DNA from: an uncultured bacterium
GTDB lineage: Bacteria; Planctomycetota; UBA1135; GCA-002686595
Length of the DNA stretch: 41,920 nt
Direction of reading: 5' to 3'
Assembly (NCBI GenBank): GCA_938030175.1
Contig: CALHGQ010000111.1
Coordinates: 1-41,920, forward strand
Below, piece by piece: positions 11,510 through 39,615 of this stretch (positions within the stretch are counted from its first letter, which is position 1; the number at the start of each line of letters is the position of its first letter). The position numbers were made by a program, and so were the translations under genes. Below the pieces are notes generated by a model. The model worked only from the letters and a program-made list of their open reading frames with translations. It was not told the DNA's origin and searched no databases.

Positions 11510-13888
11510 ATGAAACTATCCCCCATCCAGAAGTCCAGCGCCGCCGTCTTTGGCCTCGCTGCCCTCGTTGCATCCGCAGCGACCGTTGTCCCCCTGCCCC
11601 AGGGCCCCTTCGAGCGGGTCTCTACCTTCTACGTCTTCGAGAACAGCGATGTCGACAACGAGGCTGTCGCCGAGATCGTCGCCGCCACAGAGGACGGAAT
11701 GATGCTGATCTACACCGACTCCGAGCAGGAGCAGCTCGGCTTCGTTGACATCGCTGACGCCCAGAACCCGCAGCCTGCCGGCACCGTGGACCTCGGCGGT
11801 GAGCCGACGAGCGTAGCCGTCCGAGGCGCGAACGCCCTCGTGGCCATCAACACCAGCGACGACTTTGTCCATACGTCCGGCGACCTCCTCGTTGTCGACA
11901 TCGCAACCCAAACGGTGCTCCACACGCTGCCCCTCGGCGGACAGCCCGACTCCATCGCGGTCAGCCCCGACGGCCAGTACGCGGCCATCGCCATCGAGAA
12001 CGAGCGTGACGAGGACCTCGGCAACGGCGAGCCGCCCCAGGCCCCCGCTGGGTTCCTCGTGATCGTCGATCTCGTCGGCGACGATCCGATGAACTGGACG
12101 ACCCGTGACGTCAGCCTCGTCGGTGTCCCCGACCTCTTTCCGGATGACCCAGAGCCCGAGTACGTCGCGATCAATGAGTTCAACATCGCCGCTGTGACGA
12201 TGCAGGAGAACAACCACATCGCCCTCGTGGCCCTCGGCACCGGCGACGTCATCCTCGACTTCTCCGCTGGCACCGTGGATCTCGCCGACATCGACACCGT
12301 CGAGGACGACCGCGTCGACCAGACGTCGATGCTGATGGGGGCGCCCCGCGAGCCCGACGCGATCACCTGGGTCACGCCGTTCACTCTGGCGACGGCCGAC
12401 GAAGGCGATCTCTTCGGTGGCAGCCGTGGCTTCACGACCTGGCAGCCATTCGGCGGCACGCTCTTTGAGGCGGGCAGCACCGTCGAGCACATCGCCGCCA
12501 GCGTTGGCCACTACCCGGAGAGCCGCTCGGAGAACAAGGGCACCGAGCCCGAAGGCGTCGCGTCCGGTGCCTACAGCGATGGCACTTACCTCTTTGTTGG
12601 AGCTGAACGCGCCAACATCGTGCTCGTCTACGAGGTCGGCCCATCCGGACCGTTCGGGCCCGACTCTGATCCGCGGCTGATCCAGGTCCTTCCCACGGGC
12701 GTCGGCCCCGAGGGCCTTCTGGCGATCCCGTCCCGCGACCTCTTCGTGGTCGCGTCCGAGGTGGACAGCCGCGGGGACAAGATCCGCTCTTCGCTCATGA
12801 TCTATCGGCGCACCGGCAACGGGAACTACCCGTCGATCGAGTCGGTTCCGACAGGCGGCGCAGCGGTTCCGGTTCCGTGGGGCGCCCTCTCGGGCCTGAG
12901 CGCCGCGCCCGGCAACGACGCGCTCCTCTACGCAGTTTCCGACAGCTTCTACGTTCGCTCTAGCGTTCTCACCATCGACTCGTCGATGACTCCGGCGCGT
13001 GTCCTCTCGTCGCTTCCGCTCGTCGATTCGAGTGGCGCACTCGGCAAAGCTCTCCGTCGCGTCAAGTTCGTCTATCCGGACTCGGACGACTTCGAGATCG
13101 ACGCGCTCATCAACGCGGATCTCACGGTCAACCTCGACCTCGAGGGCGTGGCTGCGAGCCCGACGGCGTCCGGCAACGAGGTCTGGGTTGTCTCTGCGGG
13201 CAGCGGCAACCTCAGCGATGGCACAAGCAACCCAAACGATCGTCCCTTTGAGTCGCCCAACCTGCTCCTGAGGCTTACCAAGAACGCAGCCGGCGACGCC
13301 TACGACATCGCCCAGGTGGTGGGGCTCCCCGCTGAGCTCGCCGAGCAGCAGCTCCGGTTCGGCCTGGAGGGGGTCACCGTTGGCTCCGACGGGAACGTCT
13401 ACGTCGTCATCCAGCGCGCCTGGACGGGCATCGGTGACTCGGACGATCGGGCTCGCCTCGGTCGCTTCCACCCGACCAGTGGCGCGTGGACCTTTGCCCT
13501 CTATCCGCTCGATGCCCCGACGTCGCCGAACGGCGGCTGGGTGGGCCTCGCTGATCTCTCCGAGGCCGCCCCGGGCATCCTCGCGGTGCTAGAGCGTGAC
13601 AACCAAGGCGGCCCCGACGCGGCCGTCAAGCGCGTCTACTCGGTGGACATCTCAGCCGTGAACTTCAAGGCCACGGATCAAGGGGCCCCCGATGTCGTAT
13701 CCAAGAACCTGGAGGTCGATCTCATGACCTCGGGCGCGTTCGCTCCGTTCGCCGGCGCCGTTCCTGAGAAGATCGAGGGCATGACGGTTCTCTCCTCGGG
13801 CGATGTCGTCATCGTGAACGACAACGACGGCGTCGACGACAACAGCGGCGAGACGCGCCTGTTGACGCTCCCTGGCATCTTCCGCTAG
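11510..13888 (+). CDS. secreted phytase-esterase-like beta-propeller protein
   Basis: The 792-residue product begins with a signal peptide (lysine, hydrophobic run AAVFGLAALVASAATV). The first half has propeller blades with repeats such as EPTSVAVRGANALVAI and QPDSIAVSPDGQYAAIAIE, typical of surface-layer or choice-of-anchor proteins. The second half, with EGVTVGSDGNVYVVIQRAW and DNDGVDDNSGETRLLTLPG, fits the esterase-like activity of phytase family. This type of protein is often made under phosphate limitation, but the catalytic residues cannot be checked here and an extracellular structural role is equally possible. ATG 11510 has no strong ribosome-binding site. The long antisense frame over the gene is a high-GC mirror frame, not a gene. 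A hairpin terminator follows at 13929. Confidence 0.78.
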   Translation: MKLSPIQKSSAAVFGLAALVASAATVVPLPQGPFERVSTFYVFENSDVDNEAVAEIVAATEDGMMLIYTDSEQEQLGFVDIADAQNPQPAGTVDLGGEPTSVAVRGANALVAINTSDDFVHTSGDLLVVDIATQTVLHTLPLGGQPDSIAVSPDGQYAAIAIENERDEDLGNGEPPQAPAGFLVIVDLVGDDPMNWTTRDVSLVGVPDLFPDDPEPEYVAINEFNIAAVTMQENNHIALVALGTGDVILDFSAGTVDLADIDTVEDDRVDQTSMLMGAPREPDAITWVTPFTLATADEGDLFGGSRGFTTWQPFGGTLFEAGSTVEHIAASVGHYPESRSENKGTEPEGVASGAYSDGTYLFVGAERANIVLVYEVGPSGPFGPDSDPRLIQVLPTGVGPEGLLAIPSRDLFVVASEVDSRGDKIRSSLMIYRRTGNGNYPSIESVPTGGAAVPVPWGALSGLSAAPGNDALLYAVSDSFYVRSSVLTIDSSMTPARVLSSLPLVDSSGALGKALRRVKFVYPDSDDFEIDALINADLTVNLDLEGVAASPTASGNEVWVVSAGSGNLSDGTSNPNDRPFESPNLLLRLTKNAAGDAYDIAQVVGLPAELAEQQLRFGLEGVTVGSDGNVYVVIQRAWTGIGDSDDRARLGRFHPTSGAWTFALYPLDAPTSPNGGWVGLADLSEAAPGILAVLERDNQGGPDAAVKRVYSVDISAVNFKATDQGAPDVVSKNLEVDLMTSGAFAPFAGAVPEKIEGMTVLSSGDVVIVNDNDGVDDNSGETRLLTLPGIFR

Positions 13889-16669: not shown

Positions 16670-18361
16670 TCACTCAAAGTCGATGCGAAGCCCCGGCGTG
16701 AAGTTCGAGGTGTTCACTCCGCCCACGGCATCGCGGTGCCAGCCTTGGAAGTACACGGAGGTGCCGGGTAGGACGACGAGAGAGCCCGACGGCTGCGGAA
16801 CGTCGGCAAGGTCGATTCGGAGGGACGCGTCTCCAAAGAGCCCTGAGTCCAAGACTTCGCCGGGACGGATGTACCGCCCAATGAAGCCGCCCAGGCAGAG
16901 GTTGCCGGCGCTTCCACCTGGGTTGGCCAAGAAGCCCTCGGACAGGCTCGCGAGGAAGAAGGTGAGAACCGATGCCGGAAGCCTGCTTGCACGGAGCACT
17001 ACTTCGTTGCGGTTGACCGCCGAGAAGCCGAGGGCATCGATCGTGCTGGTCACGCTCGTCGAGTTCGGAGCGGCAGAGCAGTACGTCGTGCCGATATCCT
17101 CCAGCAGGTTGCGACCATAGATCAGGAAGTTCGGAGAGCTCATGCCCTGAATCAGATTCAGCGCGCGGGACGTAAACACGACGGTGTGCCCGTCGTGGTC
17201 GATGTGGGGGTCGCACGCTTCCCTGTTGATCGGACCGCCGCCCCAGCCAACGCTGATGCGTTCGGTGGTGTCGGTCAGCCGATCTCGCAGGTAGATCTCT
17301 TCGCTAAACCCGTTCCCGCCTGGCAAGAGGTCATCGGAGTCCGCGCTAAAGGTCACGAAGCGCCCGCGGAACGAGATCCCCATGGGGGAGCTGAGGTTGC
17401 CCGACGCGTTTTGGCCACTGGGAGTGAGGCTGAGCCTCTCCACGCTGTCCGTTGCCACGTCGTAGGCAAAGATCCCGCCGACCGGGGCGATCATGGACGA
17501 CCAGAAGGCCACGACCTGACCCGAGCCAGAGATGGCGGGCCACGCGGCGCCCAGGGTCGAACCGGTAAGGATCGTCGGGTGATCGATCTGACGGATCTCG
17601 CCCGTCGTCATGTCCTTGAGGTAGATGTTCACCTCACTCGGCGCCGTGGTCCCCAGGTTGTCTGCGGCCGAGCGGAACACGAGGGCCTCTCCGCTATCGC
17701 AGATATCAACGTCGATGGACCATGAGTCCGCGCCGATGCCGGATTGCGTCACGCTGACGTACTCGATCGCCCCCGACAACCGGTCGTATCGGTAGATGTC
17801 GGCGTTGTTGTTCAGGTCACGGACGTCCAACTGAGCGTCGGAATCGAAGGCGACGTAGCGGCCGTTTCCGGAGATCCTTGGCCGAGCGCTTGACGCATCG
17901 CTTGGCATCCCGTTCGCCTTCTTGCTGACCAGTTCGGTCGTTCCCGTGACCATGTCCCTCAAGAAGATGTCCCTCCTGTCGTTCGTGTCGCCGGCCACGA
18001 GGTCATCGCGGGCTCCGGCGAACGTCACGTACCGGCCATCGTCGGAGATGTCGGGCCAGAAGCAGCGATCGGCGGGTGTTCCATCCGGGAGGACGCTCAC
18101 GATGTCCGTCGTCTTCGTGACCAGGTCGTGGCGAAAGACGAAGTCGAAGCTCCCCACGGAGCCCGGCGCTAGGTTGGTCGCTCGACTGGAGAAGACCGCA
18201 TAGCGGCCGTCGCCGGAGATCCTCGCCCCGTCACAGGGGCCATTGGCGAAGTCCCCGGCGTCGTTGACACTGATGGCGATGTTGGTCTGAGCGGCGGCGG
18301 TGGCGAGCGCGCCTGCCAGCCATGCCGCGGCGAGCGACGCGGGAGCGAGAGGTTTAGGCAT
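16670..18361 (-). CDS. secreted TolB/PD40-type beta-propeller protein with shared C-terminal domain
   Basis: 563 residues with a signal peptide (LAAAWLAGALATAAAQ). Repeated blades of the TolB/PD40 type carry the pattern ISGDGRYAVFSS, ISDDGRYVTFAG, ISGNGRYVAFDS and similar, forming a propeller over residues ~30-420. From about residue 427 (16670-17083) lies a separate domain: it starts YC, has GGSAGNLCLGGFIGRY, then PQPSG and VYFQGWHRD, ends SNFTPGLRIDFE. The same domain ends two other proteins in the window (32863-33267 and 39199-39612). The two cysteines (start of the domain and LC) could form a disulfide. Function of the protein unknown; it is probably exported to the surface or outer-membrane side. 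The transcript probably starts after TAGTAT at 18387-18392, 25 bases upstream of the ATG. Confidence 0.78.
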   Translation of the reverse strand: MPKPLAPASLAAAWLAGALATAAAQTNIAISVNDAGDFANGPCDGARISGDGRYAVFSSRATNLAPGSVGSFDFVFRHDLVTKTTDIVSVLPDGTPADRCFWPDISDDGRYVTFAGARDDLVAGDTNDRRDIFLRDMVTGTTELVSKKANGMPSDASSARPRISGNGRYVAFDSDAQLDVRDLNNNADIYRYDRLSGAIEYVSVTQSGIGADSWSIDVDICDSGEALVFRSAADNLGTTAPSEVNIYLKDMTTGEIRQIDHPTILTGSTLGAAWPAISGSGQVVAFWSSMIAPVGGIFAYDVATDSVERLSLTPSGQNASGNLSSPMGISFRGRFVTFSADSDDLLPGGNGFSEEIYLRDRLTDTTERISVGWGGGPINREACDPHIDHDGHTVVFTSRALNLIQGMSSPNFLIYGRNLLEDIGTTYCSAAPNSTSVTSTIDALGFSAVNRNEVVLRASRLPASVLTFFLASLSEGFLANPGGSAGNLCLGGFIGRYIRPGEVLDSGLFGDASLRIDLADVPQPSGSLVVLPGTSVYFQGWHRDAVGGVNTSNFTPGLRIDFE

Positions 18362-22923: not shown

Positions 22924-24546
22924 ATGCAATCACTTCATCGCTTTACCTTCGCAGCCGCTGTTCTCGGCTTCGTTTCGACTGCCCCCGGAGTCGCGCAGAC
23001 CGAAACAGTCTTCGGTCTCACTAACCCTGTTTCCCAAGCCAGCGGCTGGGGCGCCTCCGCCGCGATCCTCGATGACGTGGACGGCGATGGAACCGCGGAC
23101 CTCTTGGTGGGGGCGCCGGGCTTCGGTGGCGGGGTAGCGGCGAGCGTCCATTCCGGCGTTAGTGGCGCACACCTCTACAGCGTGATGGCGTCCAACGCGC
23201 CCATGTTCTTTGGGGACGCGGTCTTCCCCATGTTGGATGAAACCGGCGACGGGATCTCTGAGATCATGTCGCTCCGTAGTCAGTCCGGCAACCCGAGCTC
23301 GGGGCCCGGAACCATCACGGTTCACGACGGCGCCGACGGCAGCGAAATCCGCAGCGTCTCGATCGCCGCTGGCGCCACGCTGCAGGCCCACTCGCAGACC
23401 GACGCTTACTCGCCTGGCGACATCGACGGCGATGGGTACGGCGATCTGCTCTGCGTGACGGCCGGGTTGCAGTCACCGGGCGCGGCGCGCCCCGTCACAG
23501 CACTCTCAGGGCTGACGGGCGAGCTCCTCTACGTCGCGGAGCACGCAGCTGACGTTTCCATAGGAGCGTTCACCTCGGTCTCTGACCACGATGGTGACGG
23601 TCAAGACGACTTCGCGGTCGCCACGAGGCAAGCAAGCGTCGGTGCGGTCGAGATCTTCTCCACCGCGACAGGCCTGCTCCTCTCGGCGTTCCCGTGCAGC
23701 GCCGTCGATCAGATCACGAACAACCATGAGCCGTTCGTCGCCGTATCCGACCTCGACGGTGATGGACTGAAAGACCTGGCCGTCGGCGGCCTCTTTACGG
23801 GCTTCGCTGCCATCGCGTCCTCCGCCACGGGCTCGACGATTCGTGACTGGAGCGTGGTGGCCAGCGGCACGCTGTCTTTTGGCAGTCGACTGATCGAGGT
23901 CGGCGATCTCACCGGCGATGGTCACAGGGACCTGCTTGCGTTCCAAGCCTTTGGGGACTTTCAGAACGATCCGTTCGTAGCGGCTTTGGACCCGGTGACG
24001 GGCGACGTGCTGTTCCACGAGTTCATCCCGGGCCTTGTGGGGGGCTACACGGGTGACGAGCGCTTGATGGCGATCGATGCATCGCTCGATCCACTAGGTT
24101 TCCCCCTCTTCGCGTTCCAGTCGGCCCCGCCGAGCGAGGTTAAGGTCCAGAGGATCCTTCCTGAGATCGGTGACGCCGACTGCTTTGGCGCCGCTGATGC
24201 AATGGGGGTCATGGCCCAGCTGACGGCGCGCGGTGCGCCGCGGGTCCAGGGCCCATCGCGCCTAAGCTTGACGCTCACCGACGCACAACCGGGCGGCTTC
24301 GCGGCCATTCTCTTCGGGTTGGAGCGCACGGTGTTCCCCATCGGGCCCGCCGATCTCTGCGTTGGAATGACGCCTGGCCTGATCCGCCTCGGCAACCTCT
24401 CCACCGCTGGCGACGCAACCCTAGACGTGAGCCTCAGTGCCCTCGGCGCGGCCGCGTTCGAGGACTGGACGTTCCAGGGGGTTTTCCGCGACGCCGTTCT
24501 AGGCGTCCGCGCGACAAACGCTGTCACGTTCACTGCGGCTCCGTAG
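22924..24546 (+). CDS. secreted FG-GAP repeat protein with C-terminal domain
   Basis: 540 residues. A signal peptide (FAAAVLGFVSTAPGVAQ) leads into an FG-GAP propeller whose blades carry calcium-binding DxDGDGxxDL loops: DDVDGDGTADLLVGAP, GDIDGDGYGDLLC, SDHDGDGQDDFAV, SDLDGDGLKDLAV and GDLTGDGHRDLLA. The last ~120 residues (from CFGAADAMG to the end) contain the pattern LCVG..., then EDWTFQGVFRD and RATNAVTF, a diverged version of the C-terminal domain seen in three other proteins of this window. It is probably bound to the surface or released; FG-GAP proteins often bind other surface molecules. A TATCGT box at 22888 could give a 30-base leader. It converges on the minus-strand gene ending at 24570. 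Confidence 0.82.
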   Translation: MQSLHRFTFAAAVLGFVSTAPGVAQTETVFGLTNPVSQASGWGASAAILDDVDGDGTADLLVGAPGFGGGVAASVHSGVSGAHLYSVMASNAPMFFGDAVFPMLDETGDGISEIMSLRSQSGNPSSGPGTITVHDGADGSEIRSVSIAAGATLQAHSQTDAYSPGDIDGDGYGDLLCVTAGLQSPGAARPVTALSGLTGELLYVAEHAADVSIGAFTSVSDHDGDGQDDFAVATRQASVGAVEIFSTATGLLLSAFPCSAVDQITNNHEPFVAVSDLDGDGLKDLAVGGLFTGFAAIASSATGSTIRDWSVVASGTLSFGSRLIEVGDLTGDGHRDLLAFQAFGDFQNDPFVAALDPVTGDVLFHEFIPGLVGGYTGDERLMAIDASLDPLGFPLFAFQSAPPSEVKVQRILPEIGDADCFGAADAMGVMAQLTARGAPRVQGPSRLSLTLTDAQPGGFAAILFGLERTVFPIGPADLCVGMTPGLIRLGNLSTAGDATLDVSLSALGAAAFEDWTFQGVFRDAVLGVRATNAVTFTAAP

Positions 24547-24569: not shown

Positions 24570-26237
24570 CTAGCGGCGCCGTTTCTCCTCGCGGCGCATG
24601 GGCATGACGTCGATGACCTTCCAGATCTCCGCCGCTGGAACCGGCTCTCCGTAGCGCTTCTTCAGGCCGCCGTCCTTGCCCACGAGGAGCATCACGAACC
24701 CATCGCCTTCGATTCCGTAGAGTCGCTTGAGTACGGCGGAAGGCGGCCTCGCGGGTAGGTCGCCGATGCGCGCCTTGGCGAACTCGCGGTTCAGGTCGAT
24801 GGCGATGATGTCTCGGTCGAGGGCGCCGTGGTAATCGCTCGCGAGCAGCTGAACCTGCTCTTCGCAGAGACTCTCGGGGCCGTGCATCACGAGGAGGCGA
24901 TGCTCCCATGCGGTCTTTTTCATGAAGATCTCAGTGGCTTCGACGCCTGCTTCGCGGAGCACCCAGAGCGGCTCTCCTGTTGCGCCTGAGAGCATCCGAA
25001 CGCTGCCGCGGTCGGAGACCCACCCGCGATCGACCCAGGTCGACGTGCCGACCAGGAGGTCGCGAACGCCGTCTCCGTCGACGTCGCGGACCGTGTCCAT
25101 CACGAGCCCCGAGTCGGGGCCAGCGCCCTCCCATTCGCCGCGGTACAGGACCTTGCCCGAGGACGCGGCGTAGGTCGCAAAAGCGACGTTGATCATCTGG
25201 CAGGGCTCCGAAACCCAAACGTCCGCGCGCCCGTCGCCATCCATGTCCGGGGCGAGCTGAAGCGTGGCCGCGACGTTCTCCAGCTGGCCGGAGAAGCCGG
25301 TGAACTCGGTGCTCCCCTTCGGGTTGTTGCGCCCCGGTCCTGGGACAGTCCACGAGACGCTCGCGGACTCACCCACGGCCACGGAGTGGAGCTGTGTGCG
25401 CTCGCCGCTGGCATCCGAGGTCGCCAGGAAGAAACGCGCACCGTCTGCGCCGGGCCCGACGCCCGCACCGACGGCCCCTTCGATCACCGCTTTCTCCAGC
25501 GGCAGCACCGCTTCGCTGTCCCCGAGCAGCTTCTTCGGATACGGCTGCGCGAAGAGCGCTTGTGGGTCCTCGGCGCCTTGGCCGCTCAAGAGGAGCTCAT
25601 TCGTCTCGGGGAGCGCAACGTCCGCGAAGCCGTCGCCATCGAGGTCGCCCAGCGGCAGGAGCCCCTGGGCCGATCGGCTCGCGATGGTCGCGTCGAGGAC
25701 CTCACCGTCCTTCCCTGATCGCAGCGCGAGCGGCCGCGTTCCCGCAAGGACGAAGTCGCTCGCGCCGTCGCCCGAAACATCGCCGATCTGCAGGACGTCG
25801 CGGGCGGCAGCGTCGAGGAGGAAGAGCGCCTTCCCCGTACGTCCACAGCGAACGTCCACCGGTCCGATGCCCGGCCGCCCCACGAGGACCTCTGGCGCAC
25901 CGTCGCCGTTCAGATCGGTGAGGCGCCGCAGAGAGTTGCCGAAGCCGATCGCGTGGTCCGATGTCCAGCGGGCCAAAGGCTGCTGCGTTCGCCCAGAGAG
26001 CACCAGTACCGCGCCCGCCTTCGGGCGGTCGCCGACCGCCGCGGAGGGAGCGCCCACGGCGAAGTCGTCGGTTCCGTCACCGTCGATGTCCGTGAGGGCG
26101 AGCACGGAGCGGCCGAAGCGAATGCCTTCCTTGACCTCTTGGGGGACTGGACCAGCTAGGGCAGTGTGTGCTGCAAGCAGCAGAGCTGCTGTTGCGCCCG
26201 GGATTGTTCTCAGCGTCGAAGCGATGGAGCGAGCCAT
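24570..26237 (-). CDS. exported FG-GAP protein fused to a DUF4174 domain
   Basis: 555 residues. Signal peptide (TAALLLAAHTALA), then FG-GAP blades with metal loops: TDIDGDGTDDFAVGAP, TDLNGDGAPEVLVGRP, GDVSGDGASDFVLAG, GDLDGDGFADVALP, PDMDGDGRADVWVS, RDVDGDGVRDLLVG. The last ~120 residues form a DUF4174 domain: WEHRLLVMHGPES, then DRDIIAIDLN, VMLLVGKDGGLKKRYGE and the hallmark end IDVMPMRREE. DUF4174 has a thioredoxin-like fold with no known reaction. The open frame reaches 26354, but ATG 26237 gives a clean signal peptide and has TAGTGT 7 bases before it. Whether the last domain senses or modifies something at the surface is unknown. Confidence 0.85.
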   Translation of the reverse strand: MARSIASTLRTIPGATAALLLAAHTALAGPVPQEVKEGIRFGRSVLALTDIDGDGTDDFAVGAPSAAVGDRPKAGAVLVLSGRTQQPLARWTSDHAIGFGNSLRRLTDLNGDGAPEVLVGRPGIGPVDVRCGRTGKALFLLDAAARDVLQIGDVSGDGASDFVLAGTRPLALRSGKDGEVLDATIASRSAQGLLPLGDLDGDGFADVALPETNELLLSGQGAEDPQALFAQPYPKKLLGDSEAVLPLEKAVIEGAVGAGVGPGADGARFFLATSDASGERTQLHSVAVGESASVSWTVPGPGRNNPKGSTEFTGFSGQLENVAATLQLAPDMDGDGRADVWVSEPCQMINVAFATYAASSGKVLYRGEWEGAGPDSGLVMDTVRDVDGDGVRDLLVGTSTWVDRGWVSDRGSVRMLSGATGEPLWVLREAGVEATEIFMKKTAWEHRLLVMHGPESLCEEQVQLLASDYHGALDRDIIAIDLNREFAKARIGDLPARPPSAVLKRLYGIEGDGFVMLLVGKDGGLKKRYGEPVPAAEIWKVIDVMPMRREEKRRR

Positions 26238-26244
26238 TCGTTGG

Positions 26245-26250
26245 ACACTA
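26245..26250 (-). promoter_or_regulatory. -10-like box TAGTGT, leaderless start of the FG-GAP/DUF4174 gene
   Basis: Minus-strand GCTAGTGT, 7 bases before ATG 26237; supports this start over the longer open frame. Confidence 0.5.
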
Positions 26251-26451
26251 GCACAAGGGAATCGAAGTTGCATCTTTGCGGGCGTTCTGCGTGGCTCGGT
26301 TCCCAGGGACGTGGCAGGTCGTTTCCGGGTGATGTGGTTGGAACAAAGTTCCATGTCACCTAGGGAGACTGAGCGGAGGATCGCAGGCTCTCCCTCATGA
26401 CCCAGAGGGCCGAACGACGATCAAGGCTGAGACCATTATCTCTCTCGTTCC

Positions 26452-32862: not shown

Positions 32863-35319
32863 TCACTCAAAGAGGATCGAAACCGAGTTGGTGAAGTTCG
32901 ACGTCGCCGTGCCACTGACCGTATCCCGGTGCCAGAGGGCGAACTGCCAGAACGAGCCGCTGATCGCAGGCACCGGACCATCAGGTTGGGAGATCTGTTG
33001 GGGATCGAAGGGCACCGTGATCGAGCCGCTGGATCCGCTGCTTGCGACGGCATTGGAGTAGCGGCCCACCGTGCCGCCGACGCACAGCACGCCAGCGCTG
33101 CCCCCCGGGTTCATCGAGTTGGCGAAGTCCGTTCCGACGACGAAGTAGCCGAAGGAGAACGTGGGCAGGGCGGTCGCGATCATTTGCTTGTTGCTCGTCG
33201 TACTGCGGCTACCGGACAAACGAATGAACCCGCGATCGCCGGTGCTGTTGGGGTTGCCATAGCAGTACTGGAACGCTGGTGAGTAGCCGTTGGACGGGAA
33301 GTACACATGGCCGGTGACGTTGGCGTCGACTCCGATCCCGGTGTCGTACCCGACGCCCACATAGCGGCTAGTGCTAAGTCCACCGGAGTACCGGGAGGCG
33401 AGCGCCAGCCCGCCGCGGTCTGTGTAGCCAGCGGGGATGGAGTCGGCACCGACAGCCCCCGGAGAGACTCGCCGCTCCGAGATCGAGAGAAACTGGCCTT
33501 CGGTGAAGTCGAAAGCGGTAATGAAACCGTTGTAGGTTCCTATGCCAGGGCTCTGCTCGAGGTAGCTGACGATGAACTCCTCAGCGTTGGAGGAGAGACG
33601 GGCCTCCGCCTGGTCGAGGGTGAGGTCTGCGTGCTCGCTCCGCTGAAGCTCAACGGTATTGATCGGGTTGCCGCCTTGCACGAAGGTGATGAACGTGTCT
33701 TCCTCGATCGTGCTGAACTGGTCGTAGGCGATGGTGTAGGTGGGCACGGAGGTACCCGGGAATGCGATGGCGTCCGAGACGTCAAGCTCCCCGACGCTGT
33801 CGCCGACCGGAAGGGTCACGACTGGAAAGTGCGGGAAGGCCACCGAGCCGTTGGCGTTGAGCTGTGTCACCTCGACGGTGTACTGCTCGTCGGCCAAGCG
33901 GCGATTGATCCAGGCGACGTTCCAGCGATTGACGTCCGTCGGGTCGCCCGTGGACTCAGAGATGCAGATGTCTGTCGAGTCAAAGCCCGTCGAGGAATCT
34001 AGGAACAGCGATGAGCCGAACGTGCCGTCAGGCATGACGATTCTGCCCTGAGCGTCCGAGTCCGGCCCGAAGTCGGCGTTCCACACGATGACGAAGCGTG
34101 CATCAGCAGTGGCAGCCCAGCTTCCGCCAACGTCTGGCTGCGTCTGAACGACCGTCGTTGACGGCGTGGTGACCTGGAGGATTCCCGCGTCGAATGAGCC
34201 GCTGCCGAAGTTCCAGGTGCGGGCCACGATCGAGTTCCCGCTCGTGCCAGCGTTCCTCGCTGCCACCAGTCCCTTGGTGGCAGTGTTCACCGTCGCTGCG
34301 CTCGGATCCGTCCAGTTCTCAGACCCGAAGTCCATGTAGTCCCCGCGCGGACTCGCGCCCCCGGACGTGATGTCGGTCGCGTAGATGTCGACGTCCGTGC
34401 CCGAGAACTGATCCTCGTAAACATAGAAGAAGCGATCTGTCTCGGCCTGGTAGGCGATCTCGACGTCGCGCTGATAGCCGGATGCGGTGTCCACGCTGAA
34501 GGTGCTGAGGAGCGGATCCACGACGACTGTGCCGGCCGCAGCCGCGAGGAAGTCAGCCGGAACCGTGAGGGTCAGGCTCGTTCCGCTCAGTTCTGCGGGG
34601 ACGTGGGCGCTGCGACCCGTTCCGTCGAGCACGATGGCCTCGCCGTACCGCATGCCGCCCAGCTCGTTGGCGAACGTGAAGGCCGCGCCCTCGGGGGCTG
34701 CGCCAAGCTCGGTCGTGACCTCCATCTCCAGCGCGAGGTCGGAGGTCGCGCCGGCCACATCGAGCGCAAAGCTCTGCTCGACGGACTCCACCGCGAAGTC
34801 GTAGATGACGTCCACGGCGCCGCGATCGAGGACGATCCGGTCGCCGGAGCGCGTGACGCTTGCGCGGTCAGCGAGCTCGATCTCGCGGCCGCCTAGCGTT
34901 GCGCTGGTCAGGCGGAAGCTGACCGGGTAGTTGCGGGGAGCCTCTGACCCGAGGAACGGGATGTAGGTGAAGCCGTCCTTGGCGGCCTCCGCTTTGTAGG
35001 TCTTGCCCCGGACCCAGGTGGAGTCCGCGCCGGGTTGGAAGTAGAGCCGCTCCCGGTCGATCGCAATGGACTCGACGGGCCCACGGACCTCGGAGTCAGG
35101 CGTGGCGGACACGGCCAGCGGGCGCGGCTGCGAGAAGAACTCCCCTGTGGCAGGCGACTCGACGCCGCGCGGCTCCGCAGAATGGGGCGTGTCACCCCTG
35201 AGCAGCGCGTTTCGATCCTTCGGGAGGACCTCTGCCGGAGCTTGGAGGGCTGCGGCAGGCGCAGCGATCGCGCCCGCGGCGAGTGCGATGGAGGTGGTGC
35301 AGATGAGATTGCGATACAT
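32863..35319 (-). CDS. large secreted protein with shared C-terminal domain
   Basis: About 818 residues. A signal peptide (IALAAGAIAAPAAALQ) is followed by a beta-rich region containing VRGPVESIAIDRERLYFQPGADS-type strands, then FRLTSATLGGREIELADRAS and long runs of strands with Asp and Gly. The middle (~290-680) is a likely propeller (FYVYEDQFSGTDVDIYATDI, RFVIVWNADFGPDSDAQG, WNVAWINRRLADEQYTVEV). The final 134 residues (32863-33267) are the shared domain: start YC, then MNPGGSAGVLCVGGTVGRY, WQFALWHRD, SNFTNSVSILFE. No catalytic motif is visible. The open frame extends nine codons further, but ATG 35319 gives a good signal peptide. It is divergent from trmB. Confidence 0.75.
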   Translation of the reverse strand: MYRNLICTTSIALAAGAIAAPAAALQAPAEVLPKDRNALLRGDTPHSAEPRGVESPATGEFFSQPRPLAVSATPDSEVRGPVESIAIDRERLYFQPGADSTWVRGKTYKAEAAKDGFTYIPFLGSEAPRNYPVSFRLTSATLGGREIELADRASVTRSGDRIVLDRGAVDVIYDFAVESVEQSFALDVAGATSDLALEMEVTTELGAAPEGAAFTFANELGGMRYGEAIVLDGTGRSAHVPAELSGTSLTLTVPADFLAAAAGTVVVDPLLSTFSVDTASGYQRDVEIAYQAETDRFFYVYEDQFSGTDVDIYATDITSGGASPRGDYMDFGSENWTDPSAATVNTATKGLVAARNAGTSGNSIVARTWNFGSGSFDAGILQVTTPSTTVVQTQPDVGGSWAATADARFVIVWNADFGPDSDAQGRIVMPDGTFGSSLFLDSSTGFDSTDICISESTGDPTDVNRWNVAWINRRLADEQYTVEVTQLNANGSVAFPHFPVVTLPVGDSVGELDVSDAIAFPGTSVPTYTIAYDQFSTIEEDTFITFVQGGNPINTVELQRSEHADLTLDQAEARLSSNAEEFIVSYLEQSPGIGTYNGFITAFDFTEGQFLSISERRVSPGAVGADSIPAGYTDRGGLALASRYSGGLSTSRYVGVGYDTGIGVDANVTGHVYFPSNGYSPAFQYCYGNPNSTGDRGFIRLSGSRSTTSNKQMIATALPTFSFGYFVVGTDFANSMNPGGSAGVLCVGGTVGRYSNAVASSGSSGSITVPFDPQQISQPDGPVPAISGSFWQFALWHRDTVSGTATSNFTNSVSILFE

Positions 35320-35465
35320 AGCAGTAGGGACGTGCCTGGGAATCAACGTGAGGAGGAGGTGCTGCCGCGAGGAGCGGCGGCTCGAAGGTGTTGACTGCTG
35401 GCCCAGAACGGGCGTTTAGCCGAATCTCGAAGATCTAGGGCGGGCCCTGCCGCACGCATGGCGGG

Positions 35466-38289: not shown

Positions 38290-39615
38290 ATGAACACTCG
38301 CCTCTTCGTTCTGGCCGCCGCTGCTGTTGCAACGGCTTCTTCTGCCAACGCTCAACGCCTTCTCATTTCCGAGAGCTCCAATGACACCGTCATGGAGTTC
38401 AGTCCCATCGACGGCTCCCTCGTCAACATGCTTGTCACCGACCTCGGTGTGGTCACCGGCGGAGCGGCGGTGACACCCATCGAGTTGATCGATGGACCCA
38501 ACGGTGAGCTCTGGGTCTCTGACCAAGGCGCGGACGTCGTTCTCCGCCTTTCGGGCGACGGCCAAACGTACATCGGCCCTGCAGCGGCCGCTCTCGACAA
38601 CATGCGTGGTCTCGCCCCCTACAACAGCGGCGCGCTGGTGTCCAACGCAGGCACCGGCAACGGAGCGCCCGGTGCGGCTCTGGTCGAGCTCGATGCTGTG
38701 GGAGCGACTGTGGCCGCGACCACGAGCGCGTTGATCGCGAGCCCATTCGACACGGAGCCATTCACCTTCAACGGCGTTGATGGCTACCTCGTCTCCGAGA
38801 TCACGAACGAAGACATCATCTTCGTGGAAGCTGCTGACCCCAACAACCAGCAGATCTTCCACGACTCTGACGGCGTCGTCGGCATCGACTTCCCCGAGCA
38901 GGTGCATGTGTCCGCCACGGGCCGCGTCTTCGTGGCTGGCTTCTCTGCACCCTCTGGTATCTATGAGTACGATCCCGCGACCGGTGCTGAGATCAACTAT
39001 ATCGACACCAGTGTGCTCGGCTTCGGTGGTCTTCGCGGCATCTACGAGCTGGGCAATGGCAACCTGCTCATCACCAACGGTTCTGGTGTGCACGTCTACG
39101 ACGTGACTGCCGGTACGGTTGCGACCGTCGTGGCCGGTGTCTCTGCACGCTTCATCTCCGTCATTACGGGAGACGGAAGCACCGGTATCGGCTCGAACTA
39201 CTGCATGGCGAACGGCAACAGCACGGGCGGCGCCGCAAGCATCAGCGCGGCTGGCTCCACCCTCGTGGCCACGAATGACGTGACGCTGACGGCTAGCATG
39301 GTTCCGAACAATGCGTTCGGGTTCTTCATCACGAGCCAGACCCAGGGCTTCGTCATGAACCCGGCAGGCAGCGCGGGCAACCTGTGCCTCTTGGGTGAGA
39401 TCGGTCGCTACGTGGGCTCCGGGCAGATTCAAAACAGTGGAGCCGCTGGGGAGTTCAGTCTTGCCATCGATCTGACCCAGACGCCACAGCCGACGGGCAT
39501 TGTGTCGATTGCGGCCGGCGAAACCTGGAACTTCCAGGCTTGGTTCCGCGACACAGACGCGTCCGGCGTTGCGACCTCCAACTTCACGGACGGACTCGAG
39601 ATCGACTTCCAATGA
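38290..39615 (+). CDS. secreted beta-propeller protein with shared C-terminal domain
   Basis: 441 residues. Signal peptide (LFVLAAAAVATASSANAQ), then a propeller with blades such as RLLISESSNDTVMEFSPIDG, LIDGPNGELWVSDQGADVV, GRVFVAGFSAPSGIYEYDP and LGNGNLLITNGSGVHVYDV. The last 138 residues (39199-39612) form the shared domain: start YC, MNPAGSAGNLCLLGEIGRY, PQPTG, WNFQAWFRD, SNFTDGLEIDFQ. This is the cleanest copy. The ATG follows a long leader, and a TAGCAT box at 38178-38183 could be its promoter. A strong terminator follows at 39636. Confidence 0.8.
   Translation: MNTRLFVLAAAAVATASSANAQRLLISESSNDTVMEFSPIDGSLVNMLVTDLGVVTGGAAVTPIELIDGPNGELWVSDQGADVVLRLSGDGQTYIGPAAAALDNMRGLAPYNSGALVSNAGTGNGAPGAALVELDAVGATVAATTSALIASPFDTEPFTFNGVDGYLVSEITNEDIIFVEAADPNNQQIFHDSDGVVGIDFPEQVHVSATGRVFVAGFSAPSGIYEYDPATGAEINYIDTSVLGFGGLRGIYELGNGNLLITNGSGVHVYDVTAGTVATVVAGVSARFISVITGDGSTGIGSNYCMANGNSTGGAASISAAGSTLVATNDVTLTASMVPNNAFGFFITSQTQGFVMNPAGSAGNLCLLGEIGRYVGSGQIQNSGAAGEFSLAIDLTQTPQPTGIVSIAAGETWNFQAWFRDTDASGVATSNFTDGLEIDFQ

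Follow-up and report, generated by a model that had tools for sequence, protein, structure and literature searches.

Several exported proteins encoded on one contig of an uncultured planctomycete end in what looks like the same sequence, which raises the question of what this common end is and what it does for the proteins that carry it. The window, by which we mean the whole stretch of 41,920 nucleotides that was analysed, had been described in an earlier note as encoding three exported proteins with different N-terminal parts and a shared C-terminal domain, for which a surface-attachment, sorting or lectin-like role was proposed. Translation of 39199-39612 (+) gave the noted sequence, from YC to DFQ, with all the quoted motifs; it forms the last 138 residues of its host, an open reading frame (ORF) that stops with TGA (Table 1). 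The other two copies were also recovered at the ends of exported proteins, and beyond these three, a fourth protein of the window ends in a diverged copy, which is linked to the family via intermediates (single-linkage clustering together with a relative's copies) and was taken into profile A4. All four hosts (four of four) have a signal-peptide-like start and carry the domain at the end. Searches for the rest of the hosts gave no Pfam or NCBIfam family for the N-terminal part of the 441-residue protein, and no Pfam family for the host of copy 3. Two further proteins of the window are without the terminal domain: an FG-GAP protein that adjoins the host of copy 4 (24573-26354, -) and ends in DUF4174, and an exported protein (11510-13888, +) in which a phytase-like domain is accompanied by a weak match to choice-of-anchor I.

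Table 1. Coordinates of the terminal domain, its hosts and associated features in the window
Feature	Position	Strand	Basis or remark
Terminal domain, cleanest copy, YC...DFQ	39199..39612	+	Translation, AF2 pLDDT 95.5, family searches
Host ORF, exported, 441 aa, domain at end	38290..39615	+	ORF translation
Predicted Sec signal peptide MNTRLFVLAAAAVATASSANA, next residue Q	38290..38352	+	Read off sequence; crude rule alone, without SignalP
Cys2 codon, co-conserved Cys pair member 1	39202..39204	+	Co-occurrence count across copies
Cys63 codon, pair member 2, GNLC motif	39385..39387	+	Co-occurrence count across copies
DNA block common to C705 gene end, 83% identity	39188..39619	+	blastn
Copy 2 of domain	16673..17083	-	49% identity to cleanest copy, E 8e-39
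Copy 2 host ORF, 563 aa, signal peptide, weak PD40-like propeller match	16670..18361	-	
Copy 3 of domain	32866..33267	-	41% identity to cleanest copy, E 1e-28
Copy 3 host ORF, 827 aa from TTG, signal peptide	32863..35346	-	Probable ATG start 35319
Copy 4, diverged, CFGAADAMG..., at extreme C-terminus	24178..24543	+	tblastn E 4.5e-4
Copy 4 host ORF, 540 aa, FG-GAP propeller	22924..24546	+	PF01839 E 5e-17

The earlier note knew no named family for this domain, and this holds after searches of Pfam, NCBIfam and the PDB that used both single sequences and 56 diverse copies, some of the latter as little as 18% identical to the query. A covering family in Pfam or NCBIfam was found for neither the window copy nor the diverse copies, and the sole match of the 56 was one stray DUF6764 (E 0.0026). 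PDB sequence searches with the domain returned nothing convincing; the profile matches were partial antibody light chains (E >= 0.003), which we took as a chance likeness to Ig strands. Among the open papers searched, which include few subscription titles, we found no account of the domain. No internal copies in cytosolic proteins were found either. Comparative evidence strongly supports a real, undescribed family. A viral origin was considered and rejected, as none of the viral contigs searched encodes the domain and no viral fold matched at E 0.001.

An AlphaFold2 model of the domain (pLDDT 95.5, pTM 0.89), based on an alignment of 35 copies from its own genome, is all-beta and sandwich-like; it has nine strands, and no helix in it is as long as four residues. 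Foldseek searches of the PDB with this model gave no entry at E <= 0.001; the best matches were generic Ig-like sandwiches, among them antibody domains and repeats of ester-bond adhesins, nearly all with TM < 0.5. The generic two-sheet Ig-like fold is common to the domain and to ester-bond adhesin repeats, antibody-like domains and S-layer beta-sandwiches, but these PDB sandwiches are distant from it (E > 0.001, TM < 0.5, about 10% identity, no common motif). The earlier note had asked whether the two cysteines pair, and their distribution is consistent with this. Cys2 and Cys63 are both present in 243/251 unique copies and both missing in five, which come from five separate genomes (G035, G078, G125, G128, G323); the three discordant copies have extra cysteines elsewhere. 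Co-occurrence is strong by Fisher's test (p 1.6e-8, a value that ignores the relatedness of the copies). Because the two cysteines are kept or lost together, with double losses in five genomes, they probably form a disulfide. Eight positions (G19, G60, R70, G84, G107, Q113, R117 and D118) show conservation of 90% or more among the 56 diverse copies. Along the final long strand, Q113, W115 and R117 occur in alternation with W110, F112 and F116, and we infer that the first three form a surface patch.

We then asked how common the domain is. Its own genome (7.17 Mb, 82% complete) holds at least 150 scored copies, the best 150 of 352 candidates, with E < 1e-26, a recurrence far above chance; one copy there (G000:C221:24034-24444, L005) has an in-frame TAG in the domain and is either a pseudogene or an assembly error. 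When the window copy was used as query in a scan, Planctomycetes bacterium Poly30 (CP036434) emerged as the closest cultured relative, named Saltatorellus ferox Poly30 in the literature (PMC10896814). In an unselected 1.2-Mb stretch of the Poly30 chromosome, 59/850 predicted genes (7%) encode the domain, which extrapolates to about 380 copies over the 7.72-Mb genome. The same genome has an 83-residue frame with the last third of the domain a few kilobases downstream of an intact carrier (L163:10477-10719), probably a decayed or partial copy. A broad profile found the domain in 79/81 genomes of the Saltatorellus family, most with at least 52 copies; in about 16 genera of this family it is rare (1-12 copies each), and therefore not essential there. 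With a narrow profile, 22/392 genomes of the phylum were positive, 18 of them within the family, and with the broad profile 24 of the 294 sampled genomes have a match and fall outside it, mostly with 1-8 copies and with up to 13 in family f27. As judged from these scans, the domain is a mark of one planctomycete family, and the rest of the phylum has few copies. Other phyla were covered by the single scan with the window copy. A metagenome-assembled genome titled Gemmatimonadetes (Ww169) has typical copies, with identities that reach 64% (L096 and L134; JAHECL010000105 and JAHECL010000126); its title is probably wrong, or its bin mixed.

The proteins that carry the domain differ widely. The cargo of 54 Poly30 carriers includes subtilase (S8), M14 carboxypeptidase, M64 peptidase, amidase_3, esterases, FG-GAP and PQQ propellers and beta-helices, so the difference between N-terminal parts seen in the window extends from peptidases to esterases to propellers. 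Among 1914 pairs of proteins whose domains are 60-70% identical, the N-terminal parts align in just 157. A case at the DNA level was found in the own genome, where the end of the window gene and that of the gene on contig C705 (G000:C705) share a block of 432 bp that reaches from 11 bp ahead of the YC codon to 4 bp past the stop codon, with about 95% identity over its 3' two thirds. The C705 gene encodes an FG-GAP-type propeller, and its N-terminal part is unrelated to that of the window host; the module has therefore been copied between genes, and the shared block is direct evidence of copying at the DNA level. Carrier genes in Poly30 are scattered as if at random (12/58 gaps shorter than 5 kb, versus 12.6 expected), and no secretion genes were seen among the ten large ORFs of the window that were checked. 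An operon with a secretion machine was rejected, given unclustered carrier genes and no recognisable secretion operon.

To compare carriers with other genes for export, we applied one home-made, permissive signal-peptide rule to all genes of the 1.2-Mb Poly30 sample, which makes the contrast meaningful but not the absolute rates: 51/59 carriers have a signal peptide versus 333/791 other genes (Fisher p 1.4e-11). Carriers account for 16% of the soluble exported proteins in this sample, i.e., those without internal membrane helices. A home-made lipobox test was positive in 0/47 soluble exported carriers and in 36/250 other soluble exported proteins (p 0.0025). Because none of the 47 has a lipobox, the domain and lipid anchoring appear to be alternatives to each other. 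The apparent exclusion of lipidation also bears on the idea that the domain is a passive cap, that is, a stable, disulfide-bonded end piece that shields repeat proteins or aids their folding and needs no receptor. Many hosts are indeed propellers or repeat proteins, and the fold looks highly stable; however, globular enzymes of several folds are carriers too, and the conservation of polar residues across very diverged copies is hard to explain by stability alone, so that we regard such a cap as improbable.

The placement of the domain is nearly invariant. Zero to five residues follow it in 224/227 non-redundant copies, and in 171 of the 227 exactly one residue lies past the profile end. The proposal that the domain is always last thus stands for 224 copies and fails for the remaining three, in which it forms the mature N-terminus directly behind the signal peptide. 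One of these is a Poly30 protein (L208:4650-5495) in which a cytochrome-like CxxCH domain follows; in the other two (L134, L043), a Gly linker and an FGE-like domain follow, all of these labels being assigned by eye from sequence. These three may be exceptions that serve some other role. In distant families, lone copies are also C-terminal, e.g., in FG-GAP-like or SGNH-like proteins (again labelled by eye), and no tandem or second copies were seen, each protein having one domain. Upstream of the domain there is a Gly-rich linker and G-x-x-YC, and beyond these no conserved cleavage motif. In being terminal, in single copy, on exported proteins and on unrelated cargo, the domain shows the features of a terminal sorting or attachment module, and such a role fits the sequence evidence best. 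Our preferred reading, held with slightly less than even confidence, is that the domain represents an undescribed family of terminal modules for targeting or attachment, which would be recognised by a common partner in the envelope.

The same placement could also be read as that of a C-terminal export signal, comparable to the C-terminal domain (CTD) of type IX secretion (Por_Secre_tail, TIGR04183 / PF18962), which would be read by a dedicated outer-membrane translocon and perhaps cleaved after passage. Type IX CTDs are Ig-like beta-sandwiches (PMC11285876, PMC4804311), which the model of the present domain resembles, and they too occupy the very C-terminal end of proteins exported by Sec, with diverse cargo that includes peptidases, one copy per protein and many copies per genome. 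They measure 67-108 residues, have a 3+4 Ig-like sandwich and need their last residues (PMC11285876), whereas the present domain is larger at 138 residues, has a Cys pair, is sometimes N-terminal, occurs in a different phylum and has no sequence match to them. The Por_Secre_tail profile matched 0/56 diverse copies in Pfam and NCBIfam, TIGR04183 was absent in 9/10 genomes of the family (one marginal match, G012), and no type IX CTD was among the listed PDB fold matches of the nine-strand all-beta model. The SprA/Sov translocon had no match above the cut-off in 11 genomes, in a search whose control set held no SprA-bearing genome and whose sensitivity is unproven. C25 peptidases, which include the PorU-type sortase, were found neither in the own genome nor in Poly30, G009, G012, G047 and G053; C25-type (PorU/gingipain-like) enzymes are encoded in G035 (L307, L310), G088 (L308) and G074 (L309), and thus occur in the sparse-domain genomes G035 and G088 and are missing from the domain-richest ones. 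We rejected membership in type IX on three grounds: no SprA match, no PorU-type sortase and no CTD profile match. An export signal of a kind like type IX fits the strict C-terminal end and the many-to-one cargo, but does not track with Por_Secre_tail or C25 peptidases, has no upstream cleavage motif beyond the Gly-rich linker and G-x-x-YC, and sits ill with the three intact copies at a mature N-terminus; we consider it doubtful, though a serious competitor. Because a few proteins keep the whole domain at their mature N-terminus, we favour a retained attachment module over a cleaved C-terminal signal.

Other known sorting systems were compared in the same way. PEP-CTERM with exosortase and GlyGly-CTERM with rhombosortase are likewise many-to-one C-terminal tags of exported proteins in environmental bacteria, including planctomycetes, but each of these tags consists of a short tail that includes a membrane helix, whereas the present domain is folded, 138 residues long and without a hydrophobic tail. 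Exosortase was present in 4/11 genomes, did not track the number of domains and was absent from several domain-rich genomes; pairing with exosortase was rejected for the lack of correlation and of a hydrophobic tail. No choice-of-anchor link between the cargo and other sorting tags was found among the listed NCBIfam families. The final G-L-x-I-x-F strand is similar by eye to an outer-membrane beta-signal, as found at the C-terminus of barrel proteins, which was set aside because the fold is a sandwich. The kind of module is one already known, that of terminal sorting or attachment tags, and the domain fits this kind as a new family to which no known machine corresponds.

A lectin-like role, already raised in the earlier note, would make the domain an adhesion module for a shared extracellular or cell-wall glycan. 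The beta-sandwich and the conserved Trp115, Gln113 and Arg117, which from the alignment would alternate on one strand, are compatible with glycan binding, as is the tolerance of N-terminal placement, and one of the weak fold matches, 4iyk, is a putative carbohydrate-binding protein. Typical carbohydrate-binding modules, however, occur in tandem and on glycoside hydrolases, whereas this domain is never tandem and glycoside hydrolases are not enriched in the sampled cargo; moreover, no lectin or CBM family matched by sequence in Pfam or by PDB fold at E <= 0.001. We therefore regard a lectin as unlikely.

Related terminal domains were also found. A GPCG-type subfamily is homologous to the domain (hhalign 99%), and in G035 and G089, where the domain is rare, other unnamed terminal domains, A5 (L292, L296-L299, L301, L302 and L305 in G035) and A6 (L271, L275 and L282 in G089; L291, L293, L299 and L306 in G035), stand behind signal peptides. 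They occupy the same terminal place as the present domain but are without its GNLC...IGR...FQxWxRD signature, and neither type has a Pfam or NCBIfam family. By profile comparison, A5 is homologous to the present domain (97.7% probability), with a similar strand order in the fold; A6 is linked to A5 via the last strands alone (92%) and scores 3% against the present domain directly. These relationships suggest that planctomycete terminal domains form a superfamily whose members substitute for one another from genus to genus.

Returning to the attachment module that we prefer, its action may be pictured as follows. The host protein would first be exported by Sec, after which the module would fold in the periplasm; a common envelope partner would then recognise a conserved patch (R70, Q113, W115, R117, D118 and N128) and deliver or hold the diverse cargo of peptidases, amidases, esterases and propellers at the outer surface, so that the module would take the place of the lipid anchor used by other exported proteins. 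Our searches found no envelope partner, receptor or translocon, which counts against this explanation, as do the scatter of carrier genes, the low copy numbers in about 16 genera of the family, the home-made character of the signal-peptide and lipobox tests and the chance that the three N-terminal copies are exceptions. In a bolder form, which we think rather improbable, the domain would serve as signal for an undescribed system of outer-membrane export and anchoring that is particular to the Saltatorellus family. Such a system would bring to the surface about 7% of all gene products, and 16% of the soluble exported proteins in the sample; it would work from either protein end, and sister families would use homologous tags.

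The surface biology of planctomycetes, with crateriform surfaces, shape change and prey engulfment, is poorly explained, and to our knowledge no general route for placing proteins on the surface is known in this planctomycete lineage. A tag on about 380 proteins of one cultured species would define a candidate surface proteome, and it may be usable as bait for a receptor or translocon. Proteins that are otherwise annotated as hypothetical or by their propeller repeats alone also gain a name and a profile from the tag.
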